64,000 nt of DNA from Ruminococcus sp. Lineage in GTDB: Bacteria; Bacillota; Clostridia; Oscillospirales; Ruminococcaceae. The stretch lies in contig JAGAJO010000008.1 in NCBI GenBank assembly GCA_017626015.1, positions 1-64,000 of the forward strand, written 5' to 3'. The number at the start of each line of letters is the position of its first letter. The stretch's first letter is position 1. Below, in pieces: positions 17,417-21,309 of the stretch. Made by a program: the position numbers and the translations under genes. Under the pieces are notes generated by a model. That model was not told the DNA's origin, searched no databases, and saw only the letters and a program-made list of their open reading frames with translations.

Positions 17417-17445
17417 TTGACAATCATGACTAAATATGTTATCAT
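17417..17445 (+). promoter_or_regulatory. Promoter of the pyruvate formate-lyase locus
   Basis: TTGACA (17417-17422) and TATCAT (17440-17445) with a 17-base spacer. An inverted repeat, CAACCA-N7-TGGTTG at 17459-17477, follows near the expected start of transcription and could be an operator or a 5' leader hairpin. Confidence 0.7.
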
Positions 17446-17510
17446 AAGCAGTACAGAACAACCATATATTGTGGTTGCTGTAATTTATGTTATTTCAGGG
17501 AGAGTATCGA

Positions 17511-19589
17511 ATGGAAAGAATTTTTTATGAGGAGTGGGACGGCTTCAGACCCGGAAGATGGTCAAGCACATCCGTTAATCTCAGAGATTTTATTCAGAAG
17601 AATTTTACGCCCTATGACGGCGACGAGAGCTTTCTTGCAGGACCTACCGAGGCTACCAAAAAGCTTTGGGAGCAGGTGACAGAGCTTTCCGAAAAGGAAA
17701 GGGAAGCGGGAGGAGTTCTTGATATGGATACCAAGATAGTATCCACCATAACCTCTCACGGTGCAGGCTATCTGGACAAGGAGCTTGAAAAGATCGTAGG
17801 CTTCCAGACGGATAAGCCCTTTAAGCGTTCTCTCCAGCCCTTCGGAGGCATAAGAATGGCTGTCAACGCCTGCGAACAGAACGGCTATCATGTAGATCCC
17901 GAGGTCATCAAGATCTTTACCGAGTACAGAAAGACTCATAATCAGGGCGTTTTTGACGCATATACTCCGGAAATGAGACTGGCGAGAAAATCAGCGATCA
18001 TTACCGGACTTCCCGACGCTTACGGCAGAGGAAGGATAATAGGCGACTACAGAAGAGTAGCTCTTTACGGCGTGGATTACCTTGTTGAGGATAAAAAGGA
18101 GCAGCTTGCCACCTCTCTTATGAGAATGACCTCAAAGAATATACGTCTGAGAGAGGAGCTTGCCGAGCAGATAAGGGCGCTGGGCGATCTCAAAAAGCTG
18201 GGAGAGATCTACGGCTATGATATTTCCCGCCCTGCAAAGAACGCCCGTGAGGCTATCCAGTGGCTGTATTTCGGATATCTTGCAGCAGTAAAGGAGCAGA
18301 ACGGTGCCGCAATGTCTCTCGGCAGGACCTCCACCTTTGTGGATATTTATATCAAAAGGGATATGGATAAGGGTATCCTCACAGAGGAGCAGGCGCAGGA
18401 GCTTGTGGATCACTTCATTATGAAGCTGAGACTTGTCAAGTTTGCAAGGACACCCGAATACAACGCCCTTTTCTCAGGCGACCCCACATGGGTGACAGAG
18501 TCTATAGGAGGAGTTTCGATAGACGGCGTTCCTATGGTGACCAAAACGTCCTTCAGATATATCAATACTCTCAACAATCTGGGACCTGCGCCCGAGCCTA
18601 ATATGACTGTCCTGTGGTCTCAGAGACTTCCTGTGAACTTCAAGAAGTTCTGCGCTAAAATGTCTATAAAGACCTCTGCTATCCAGTATGAAAACGACGA
18701 TATGATGAGAGTTACACACGGCGACGATTACGCTATCGCCTGCTGCGTATCTTCCATGAGGATAGGTAAGGAAATGCAGTTCTTCGGAGCGAGGGCGAAC
18801 CTTGCCAAGTGCCTGCTTTACGCTATAAACGGCGGAGTGGACGAGCGTCTGAAGATACAGGTAGGACCTAAGTACAGACCCGTTGAGGGCGATTATCTTG
18901 ACTACGACGACGTAATGGAAAAGTACGACGATATGATGGAGTGGCTGGCAGGACTGTATGTCAACACTCTCAACGTCATACACTATATGCACGATAAGTA
19001 TTCCTACGAGAAGATACAGATGGCTCTCCACGACAGAGACGTAAAGCGTTACTTTGCAACGGGTATTGCGGGACTTTCCGTTGTGGCGGATTCTCTCTCG
19101 GCTATCAAATATGCAAAGGTAAAGTGTATAAGGGACGAAGACGGCATCGTTACCGACTACGAGGTGGAGGGCGACTTCCCCAAATACGGAAACAATGACG
19201 ACAGGGTGGACAGCATAGCAGTCCGCATAGTAAGGACATTTATGGACAAGATCAGGAAGCATCACACCTACCGTGACGGCGTGCCTACAATGTCTATCCT
19301 CACCATAACATCAAATGTTGTGTACGGAAAGAAAACAGGCAATACCCCCGACGGAAGAAAAATGGGAGTACCTCTCGCTCCGGGAGCAAACCCGATGCAC
19401 GGCAGAGATACTCACGGTGCGGCGGCTTCGCTGTCCTCGGTGGCAAAGCTTCCTTTCAGACACGCTCAGGACGGTATATCAAACACATTCTCTATTATCC
19501 CCGGGGCGCTGGGCAAGGACGATCAGGTATTTATGGGCGACCTTGATATAGAGAGCATCGCACAGGAGCTTGCCAATGGAGAGATTTGA
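17511..19589 (+). CDS. Pyruvate formate-lyase core subunit lacking its glycyl-radical domain
   Basis: A 692-aa protein matching pyruvate formate-lyase over the whole ten-stranded barrel: WDGFRPGRW at the N-terminus, [35 protein letters not shown], and the catalytic pair Cys411-Cys412 in [20 protein letters not shown]. It ends at [13 protein letters not shown] plus 20 novel residues, exactly where family members (740-760 aa) continue into the glycyl-radical domain. That domain is encoded separately at 19828-20079. The enzyme converts pyruvate and CoA to acetyl-CoA and formate. Start 17511 is preferred because GGGAGAG is six bases upstream. The stop overlaps the next gene. Function probably requires assembly with the separate radical subunit (inference). 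Confidence 0.92.
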
Positions 19590-19794
19590 TCCCGATGAGG
19601 AAAACAGAAGAATAGACGAGTTGGTGGAGATGATCGACAGACTTATGGCAGGAGGAGACGGTCATATCAATGTGAGCGCTGACGAGCTTGCCGAAGGTCT
19701 AAAGGTACAGACCTGCCGCTCTTCCGACTGCGGCACGGGAAGATCAGCCTGCTGCCAGCCTACAGAGGACGCAATAGACAGGGACGAGGATTGA
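19576..19794 (+). CDS. Small protein resembling the start of a glycyl-radical domain, with a Cys-rich tail
   Basis: A 72-aa protein beginning [20 protein letters not shown]. Residues 9-36 ([20 protein letters not shown], then INVSADEL) align by eye with the first part of the glycyl-radical domain encoded next ([27 protein letters not shown]). It lacks the RVSGY radical site. The tail holds four Cys ([14 protein letters not shown]) and then acidic residues. Its ATG overlaps the stop of the core gene by 14 bases in another frame, with AGGAG seven bases upstream, so it is translationally coupled. Its role is unknown; a placeholder, assembly or protective subunit of the enzyme, or a metal-binding partner, are guesses. 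Confidence 0.75.
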
Positions 19795-19827
19795 AGATCT
19801 TATTAATTAAGGAAAGGTAGTGTTGAT

Positions 19828-20079
19828 ATGGCAAATTTTGAACCAACAGACGCACAGGTGGATAACCTTGTAGGTCTGCTTGACGGATATGTTGAAAAGG
19901 GAGGACATCATCTTAACGTAAACGTCCTTAACAGAGAAATGCTTCTTGACGCACAGAAGCACCCCGAGAAGTACCCTCAGCTTACTGTCAGGGTATCGGG
20001 ATATGCGGTAAATTTTGTAAAGCTCACCAAGGAGCAGCAGGACGACGTTATCTCCAGAACATTCCACGAAAAGCTTTGA
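19828..20079 (+). CDS. Stand-alone glycyl-radical domain of pyruvate formate-lyase (GrcA/YfiD-like)
   Basis: An 83-aa protein. After a short leader ([10 protein letters not shown]) it matches the C-terminal domain of pyruvate formate-lyase: [20 protein letters not shown], the [15 protein letters not shown] radical loop with the radical Gly58, and [16 protein letters not shown]. In E. coli a similar stand-alone protein (YfiD/GrcA) repairs oxygen-cleaved enzyme; here it appears to be the only source of the radical, because the core subunit upstream has none. It has its own ribosome site (GGAAAGG) and ATG, 33 bases after the small Cys-rich gene. The activating enzyme downstream would install the radical. 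Confidence 0.9.
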
Positions 20080-20095
20080 TAAGCGTATTTAACGG

Positions 20096-20133
20096 CGCAG
20101 GGGCGGATAATATCCGCCGCTGCCTGTTTTTTT
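20096..20133 (+). terminator. Intrinsic terminator after the split pyruvate formate-lyase genes
   Basis: GCAGGGGCGGAT pairs with ATCCGCCGCTGC with one mismatch, then a run of T residues. The activating enzyme is therefore at least partly in a separate transcript. Confidence 0.8.
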
Positions 20134-20350
20134 GCGGAATTTGTTGCACAAAAACGTGCAACAATTACAGAAATCTGTCCAAATTAAAATATAAATCATT
20201 TTCCTGCACAATTCATGAGGACGGAAACTGTGCAGTATGCACATGATCCGAAGCAGGATATGTGAATAAGTAAGATCATTTTATCAGGGGAATGCTGATC
20301 AATGTATCTGCACGCTCTAAAACAGCGGTCGGATAAACATATTTAAAGAG
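20134..20350. other. Leader region of pflA with two inverted repeats
   Basis: TTGTTGCAC-N6-GTGCAACAA at 20141-20164 is a perfect inverted repeat; its TTGTT...AACAA ends recall Rex (NADH-sensing) operators but the core differs. A second hairpin has CTGCACA/TGTGCAG arms at 20204-20235. No gene is seen here. The role is probably regulatory for the activating enzyme. Confidence 0.4.
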
Positions 20351-20360
20351 GAGATTTTCT

Positions 20361-21116
20361 ATGACTGGATATATACATTCCACCGAAAGCTTCGGGACTG
20401 TGGACGGTCCCGGAATAAGATTCGTCATTTTCTTTCAGGGCTGTCCCATGAGATGCCTGTACTGTCACAACCCCGATACATGGTCTGTTAAGGGCGGAAC
20501 TCCCAGAACTGCCGAAAGTCTGCTGGAGGAGTACGACTCGGTCAAGGAGTTTATGAAAAACGGAGGCTTGACCTGCACCGGAGGCGAACCCATGCTTCAG
20601 CTGGATTTCCTTACGGAGCTTTTTGAAAAGGCTAAAGAAAAAGGTATCCACACCTGCCTTGACACCTCGGGAGTGACATTCATTCCCGGTAAGCCGGAAA
20701 AATTTCTTCGGCTTGCACAATGTACCGATCTGGTCATGCTGGACATAAAGCATATCGACCGTGAGGAGCATAAAAAGCTTGTGGGTCATTACAACGACAA
20801 CATTCTCGCCTTTGCGGAATTTCTCAGCGAAAACGGCGTGCCGATATGGATAAGGCACGTTGTAGTCCCGGGGATAACCGATAAGGAGGAGTATCTTTAC
20901 AGGCTGGGGGAGTTCCTCTCACGGCTGAAAACCCTTAAGGCTCTGGACGTTCTGCCATATCACACTATGGGAAAGTCCAAGTATGAGCAGCTGGGTATGG
21001 AATATCCGCTGGGAGATACTCCGCCGCTGGAAAAGGAAAAAGCGGTCATGGCAAGGGAGATAATAATGAAGGGTCTTAAGGACGGACTGCGCAGGCGTAT
21101 CGGTCAGTGGAAATAG
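20361..21116 (+). CDS. Pyruvate formate-lyase activating enzyme (radical SAM)
   Basis: A 251-aa radical S-adenosylmethionine enzyme. ESFGTVDGPGIRFVIFFQGC leads into the cluster motif CPMRCLYC (CxxxCxxC), with TCTGGEPMLQ as the SAM-binding GGE motif and DVLPYHTMGKSKYEQLG near the end. It abstracts a hydrogen from the glycine of the radical domain, here expected to be Gly58 of the 83-aa protein rather than a residue of the core enzyme. It lies 281 bases after that gene, beyond a terminator. AGAGGAG precedes the ATG. Confidence 0.95.
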   Translation: MTGYIHSTESFGTVDGPGIRFVIFFQGCPMRCLYCHNPDTWSVKGGTPRTAESLLEEYDSVKEFMKNGGLTCTGGEPMLQLDFLTELFEKAKEKGIHTCLDTSGVTFIPGKPEKFLRLAQCTDLVMLDIKHIDREEHKKLVGHYNDNILAFAEFLSENGVPIWIRHVVVPGITDKEEYLYRLGEFLSRLKTLKALDVLPYHTMGKSKYEQLGMEYPLGDTPPLEKEKAVMAREIIMKGLKDGLRRRIGQWK

Positions 21117-21128
21117 GAAAATCCTTAA

Positions 21129-21163
21129 TGTATCACTCCCCGCCAAAGGCGGGGAGTGATACA
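21129..21163 (+). terminator. Strong hairpin after pflA
   Basis: A 16-base perfect stem (TGTATCACTCCCCGCC with its complement) around an AAA loop. No T run follows, so it may act as an mRNA 3' stabiliser or a factor-assisted terminator. A weaker, similar hairpin occurs at about 59273-59303. Confidence 0.65.
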
Positions 21164-21280
21164 CCTATAATACGTTACTGCTAGGCAGTAAATTTTAAAA
21201 AAGTGATCTGATCGGTACTTTCTCGGATTTACAAATGTTAATTTTATGAAAACTTTTGTGTAAAATATTGTGAACGGCTA

Positions 21281-21309
21281 TTGACAATACAGAACCGATA
21301 GTTTATAAT
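21281..21309 (+). promoter_or_regulatory. Promoter of the str operon
   Basis: TTGACA (21281-21286) and TATAAT (21304-21309), consensus boxes with a 17-base spacer, as expected for ribosomal protein genes. Confidence 0.88.

Follow-up and report, generated by a model that had tools for sequence, protein, structure and literature searches.

In many anaerobes of gut and rumen, pyruvate formate-lyase (PFL) has a central place in fermentation, and it is the textbook example of an enzyme killed by oxygen. Another glycyl radical enzyme, 4-hydroxyphenylacetate decarboxylase, has a small cysteine-bearing iron-sulfur subunit, and, unlike the PFL core analysed here, the large subunit of this enzyme has retained its radical domain (seen as a match to the profile of the radical subunit described below). 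According to PMC8683613, oxygen cleaves E. coli PFL at Gly734, after which the missing end is supplied by YfiD (GrcA), also a stand-alone radical domain; YfiD binding and activation depend on residues 696-733 of the cut PFL, and an enzyme artificially cut at 695 (core 1-695) showed no detectable YfiD binding and 32-fold less radical. The name of a further family, GrcA3 (NF038360), suggests a spare cofactor, while in 32 of 34 sampled genomes its gene adjoins a PFL without radical domain. The closest solved relatives of the present core are two PDB chains labelled 'Formate acetyltransferase', 38la (687 aa, ending SLGKED) and 38lb (739 aa, with another tail), either of which could be an engineered truncation. 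Neither was among the radical-domain matches in the PDB, and profile searches found no radical-subunit or middle-protein chain there. PFL cores without radical domain have already been solved and, given GrcA3 and these two chains, the split is not wholly unknown. Among the open-licence literature matches listed, we recognised no description of a PFL or class III reductase that is split in nature; an excerpt of one review reports no autonomous radical cofactor homolog in F. nucleatum (PMC12288474), and the excerpt of PMC11528403 deals with enzymes in which another residue replaces the glycine, a different matter.

Layout of the locus and its gene products

The window is a stretch of 64,000 nucleotides from a Ruminococcus genome. 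On its plus strand it carries, 5' to 3', a promoter-like site, a PFL core gene, a middle gene, a glycyl-radical gene, a terminator-like hairpin and pflA:

17417..17445, plus strand: promoter-like site TTGACA-17-TATCAT with TG before the second hexamer (consensus scan, 11/12)
17511..19589, plus strand: PFL core, 692 aa, ATG to TGA, without radical domain (ORF, Pfam, NCBIfam, alignment to E. coli PFL)
18741..18746, plus strand: codons of Cys411-Cys412 (sequence, alignment to PDB chain)
19527..19586, plus strand: core tail of 20 residues, absent from full-length PFL (sequence, locus comparison)
19564..19568, plus strand: AGGAG, ribosome-site-like sequence for the middle gene, within the core gene (sequence; same in genus loci)
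19576..19794, plus strand: middle gene, 72 aa, overlapping the core by 14 nt (ORF, genus alignment, profile comparison, dN/dS)
19828..20079, plus strand: glycyl-radical subunit, 83 aa, ATG to TGA, NCBIfam GrcA3 (NF038360, 165.6 bits, cut-off 158)
19999..20001, plus strand: codon of Gly58, the predicted radical glycine (sequence, alignments)
about 20091..20133, plus strand: terminator-like hairpin and T run 3' of the radical gene (fold of 20076-20140: -30.3 kcal/mol, z -4.19)
20361..21116, plus strand: pflA, activating enzyme (TIGR02493, 298 bits, cut-off 231.75)

The core matched the PFL barrel domain PF02901 over its whole profile (739 bits, cut-off 24.3, profile 7-647 of 647) and exceeded the cut-off of the PFL equivalog TIGR01255 (1131 bits against 994.2), covering positions 1-667 of 744. 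Adjacent active-site cysteines, Cys411-Cys412, are present, and the chain ends in GALGKDDQ followed by the 20-residue tail, whose F-x-G-[DE] was found again in most split cores. Only columns 2-51 of the 106 in PF01228 were matched, and both Pfam and NCBIfam place the end of the core ahead of the loop, so that the radical glycine is not in the same chain. Residues 8-675 of the core align with residues 10-682 of E. coli PFL (1h16) and residues 9-81 of the radical subunit with 680-757; the two pieces thus tile the whole enzyme, with the cut just ahead of the radical domain. The coordinates and residues given for the core and the radical gene in an earlier note on this DNA, including the cysteine pair and the novel tail, were confirmed by sequence, profiles and alignment. 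That note had described a two-part PFL: the split held, while a third conserved gene at 19576-19794 had been overlooked.

The 83-aa subunit carries the loop RVSGYAVNF with Gly58 and belongs to GrcA3 by its NF038360 score, whereas it stayed below the cut-off of the YfiD/GrcA model TIGR04365 (98.2 bits against 170) and lacks the long disordered N-terminus of YfiD. Its gene had a median dN/dS of 0.033 (32 unsaturated pairs of 325). Compared with PFL 1 (PflB, TIGR01255; E. coli 1h16), the locus is alike in core sequence, cysteine pair, loop RVSGYA and adjoining PflA, but here the radical domain is on another chain and a third protein lies between.

Overall, the core, middle and radical genes are likely on one transcript. 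The consensus scan returned 7 promoter sites on both strands versus 5.6 expected, which makes the promoter-like call weak; it gave no further plus-strand site from 17445 to 21281, and the terminator-like hairpin, absent from its listing, was found by folding only. The earlier note had given the radical gene its own leader, start and ribosome site. The start and the ribosome site (AGGAAAGG, 19810-19817) were found again, but no transcription start of its own was seen in the consensus scan. An inverted repeat (CAACCATATATTGTGGTTG) at 17459-17477, between the promoter-like site and the core start, is possibly an operator or a leader hairpin.

Relatives of the split locus and the middle protein

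Where the earlier note had suggested looking in Ruminococcus and its relatives for truncated PFL genes beside a small radical gene, such pairs were found. Among 29 Ruminococcus genomes, the source genome included, 27 had a PF02901 match (none in G008 and G013), and truncated core, middle gene and a radical gene of 82-83 aa were present in 24/24 loci readable to the cluster end; in the three left out (G001, G011, G026) the core was matched in parts only. Searching named bacterial genomes with the middle-protein profile gave 38 loci, a set that shares several records with the genus genomes and is not independent of them. All 38 had a truncated core end, and 37 had the radical gene and a complete middle gene, neither of which was present in a short contig labelled Anaerovibrio (L058). 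The remaining labels were Ruminococcus (including R. albus 8, AR67 and KH2T6) or uncultured Clostridia/Clostridiales, the Anaerovibrio record being a MAG.

The split PFL arrangement extends well beyond Ruminococcus. Counting the source genome each time, the NF038360 cut-off was exceeded in 9/197 genomes of the order (frames of 82-152 aa; the next match, below the cut-off, scored 144 bits in a 744-aa frame), in 19/392 sampled from the class and in 4/398 sampled from the phylum. From these searches 34 genomes (33 at E <= 1e-43 with NF038360, plus G047) were searched with TIGR01255, and in 32 of them the core was truncated (match end between 663 and 682 of 744) and was followed on the same strand by the radical gene; in G934 the core was in two pieces on two contigs. 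The exceptions were G904, which has a full-length PFL, and G796, in which the radical gene lies near a contig start and no PFL match was found. In-frame stops were seen in two split cores (TAG in G021, locus L021; TAA in G798, locus L132), by error or decay.

Layouts were read in 29 of the 32 split genomes (G840, G929 and G934 were left out). Nine have a middle gene (G000, G113, G192, G198, G444, G668, G830, G846, G860), whereas in 13 a cysteine tail is fused to the core, mostly like DCSNGACSTPTLFEGLD, with G928 deviating. Four have a reduced tail, with CC in G789 and G914 and a single cysteine in G606 and G622. The other three (G751, G786, G956) have neither the cysteine element nor the N-half of the radical domain, and in G786 and G956 the core stops at SLGKDD with the radical gene directly after. 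The stretch PTL-x-x-G-x-D of the fused tails also ends 5 of the 9 middle proteins (G113, G444, G830, G846, G860), which ties the two layouts together.

The middle gene starts 1 to 17 nt before the core end in genus loci and at +12 to +159 nt elsewhere, and its relative frame changes with this offset. The overlap in the genus, together with AGGAG-like sequences inside the core frame ahead of the middle-gene starts, suggests translational coupling. A median dN/dS of 0.098 (19 unsaturated pairs of 275) was measured, and the gene is under purifying selection. In 24 genus proteins M1, E15, L16, V17, D21, G27, G29, V44, D51, C52, A58, C59, Q61, P62 and E64 were invariant; across 17 diverse middle proteins M1, D21, G29, C52, A58, C59 and P62 remained so, and in all 17 a cysteine element, C-x(n)-A-C-x-x-P, replaces the radical glycine loop, with variable spacing between its two cysteines, the only invariant ones.

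For the 24 middle proteins Pfam gave nothing below E 0.01, and NCBIfam gave no model over its cut-off, only chance-level matches and weak ones to GrcA3 (17 of the 24, best E 1.2e-4). Among solved structures the best matches (E 0.025 and 0.018) were both designed proteins and were taken as chance. Profile-profile comparison (hhalign) aligned columns 7-34 of the middle-protein profile with columns 7-34 of the radical-subunit profile at a probability of 94.3, an E value of 9.9e-8 and a score of 41.5, compared with a maximum score of 11.9 in 100 column shuffles and 10.0 for the reversed profile; a genus-only profile gave 78.5 and 1.7e-5. By this comparison, the N-halves of middle protein and radical domain are homologous.

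Proposed mechanism and alternative explanations

We consider it likely that the locus encodes a working PFL made from a separately translated core, the middle protein and an obligate, docking radical subunit activated by PflA, and our confidence in the obligate split as such is slightly higher still. The radical subunit would dock into the barrel of the core, which carries Cys411-Cys412, and PflA, encoded next door, would activate it, placing the radical on Gly58. Oxygen cleavage at the radical glycine would then destroy the 83-aa part and spare the 692-aa core, so that damage might cost only the cheap part. The natural split would correspond to the cut state made permanent, with the core comparable to the cut E. 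coli enzyme and the radical subunit to YfiD. R. albus produces formate, a trait that would show the split enzyme to be functional.

The middle protein is most likely a remnant of the enzyme's own radical domain, which would have lost the glycine loop after the stand-alone copy took over, and gained the cysteine element. Its first half, corresponding by the alignments to about E. coli 680-709, may stand for part of the recognition stretch. Tentatively, we suggest a role for the middle protein in docking the radical subunit or in covering the empty site. Such a docking element is not always needed, because the 13 fused tails of the 29 layouts keep the cysteine element and not the radical-domain N-half and three layouts have neither part. 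Since the fused tails keep the cysteine element alone, this element must matter by itself, and the main alternative we would propose for it is a thiol or metal role.

An alternative explanation, which we regard as rather unlikely, is that middle protein and fused tails serve mainly as a cysteine device for sensing oxygen or redox state (a thiol switch, or a metal or iron-sulfur site), their resemblance to the radical domain being purely historical. The cysteine element is indeed the part common to middle proteins and fused tails, it recurs in 9 plus 13 of the 29 layouts and in reduced form in four, and the first cysteine, A-C and P are invariant in the 17 diverse proteins; however, the variable spacing and the presence of only two invariant cysteines are unlike usual metal sites, and three layouts do without the element.

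It appears very improbable that the radical gene is a YfiD-type spare part beside a PFL core that has decayed or become redundant, even though the family is named for an autonomous glycyl radical cofactor and two split genomes (G840 and G929) have a full-length PFL besides. The source genome (99.48% complete) has a single PF02901 match, the truncated core, so that, unlike with YfiD/GrcA, there is no intact enzyme to repair; a spare part beside an intact enzyme was therefore rejected for this genome. The four PF01228 matches in this genome fall on the core end and the radical gene and on two class III reductases. Of the 32 split genomes mentioned above, 30 lack a full-length PFL, and the core, over the PFL cut-off (1131 against 994 bits), is open and conserved in the genus. 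The obligate radical subunit expected in the earlier note agrees with both counts, and the second, full-length PFL that it named as a possible refutation was not found in the source genome. Within the genus, a second PF02901 protein was present in G003 and G027 (frames of 837 and 828 aa).

The chance that the core has ceased to convert pyruvate to formate, with the radical subunit serving another enzyme, is smaller again, as the core exceeds the PFL equivalog cut-off and keeps the cysteine pair, and the radical gene lies directly downstream of the core in 32/32 split genomes. Almost certainly wrong is the reading of the three frames as one chain broken by a sequencing error, which the earlier note had also raised, or joined by a programmed frameshift: the frames follow in close succession with the core overlapping the middle frame, and the cores of G021 and G798 contain in-frame stops, but the gene order is the same in 24/24 genus loci, the start offsets of the middle gene and hence its relative frame vary, and ribosome-site-like sequences precede the middle starts.

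Origin of the split and the class III ribonucleotide reductase

The split of PFL probably arose more than once. A careful tree of 62 core C-terminal parts, 37 of them split, was built after three long-branch full-length rows (L006, L011, L033) had been dropped from a quick 65-row tree. In it 35/37 split rows fell into one 48-row group with 13 full-length rows (support 81/99), and the f211 split pair was placed outside; this placement and the rejection of all 37 rows as one clade (p-AU 0.006) point to repeated splitting, and a single origin of all splits was rejected. The 35 split rows without the f211 pair, apart from nested full-length rows, gave a borderline result (p-AU 0.0435); in both tests the groups were named after the quick tree had been seen. 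Two full-length rows, L082 (G220) and L118 (G904), are nested in a 19-row group of otherwise split rows (support 98/99), and among the full-length PFLs in these searches none has a radical domain nearer to GrcA3 than theirs (144 and 152 bits). In this one tree they are apparent re-fusions of core and radical subunit.

A comparable split was found in the class III ribonucleotide reductase. The source genome encodes an NrdD with radical loop on contig C18 and, on contig C4 (L005:1387-3150, minus strand; also L147), an NrdD that ends ahead of the loop and adjoins an nrdG-like gene. Contig C5 (L164:1318-1620, plus strand) encodes a stand-alone 100-aa protein with an NrdD-type radical loop (RRITGYLVGTLDRFN), the single TGYLVGT match in this genome (DNA pattern, one mismatch allowed). 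A second NrdD was present in 12/13 genus genomes searched, and the loop was absent in 11/11 C-termini inspected (L155 left out); relatives of the 100-aa protein were found in 27/29 genus genomes (not in G001 and G020), with up to five copies in G021. Stand-alone radical proteins of NrdD type also occur in L203, L204 and L205 (G021, G010 and G012), with no NrdD seen in the stretch; these may be of phage or other mobile origin. Two unannotated fecal phage contigs, MT837046.1 and MT838827.1, encode relatives of the NrdD radical protein with 76% and 64% identity over 80 and 88 residues.

The split class III reductase also occurs outside the genus. In six genomes, G032, G034 and G036 of the same family and G048, G052 and G059 of other families, a loop-less NrdD is followed by a short stand-alone loop gene and this by a radical-SAM gene; in G039 such a loop gene comes directly after a loop-less NrdD; radical-loop frames of 61-77 aa (one of 120 aa) were read after the loop-less NrdD in L195-L200 and L202. 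Other relatives keep the loop in a full-length NrdD with frames of 774-852 aa. A shared driver of both splits was considered and rejected, as they do not co-occur outside the genus among 61 relatives; the two split-PFL genomes among these (G047 and G056) had no match to the NrdD radical protein.

It is conceivable, at somewhat less than even chances, that in Ruminococcus both kinds of glycyl radical enzyme are durable cores with detachable, replaceable radical subunits, the PFL with a holder that bears cysteines and descends from the enzyme's own dead radical domain, and one loop-less class III reductase served by the unlinked 100-aa protein. If true, strict anaerobes would generally deal with oxygen by placing the glycyl radical on a removable subunit, which would then be more than a repair trick of E. 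coli. These genomes are misread by annotation that looks for one full-length PFL or labels the small protein a spare part. The middle protein represents an undescribed family and is a candidate control point. With a natural core-plus-cartridge PFL the exchange idea can be tested directly, and ready-made parts become available for oxygen-tolerant radical enzymes.
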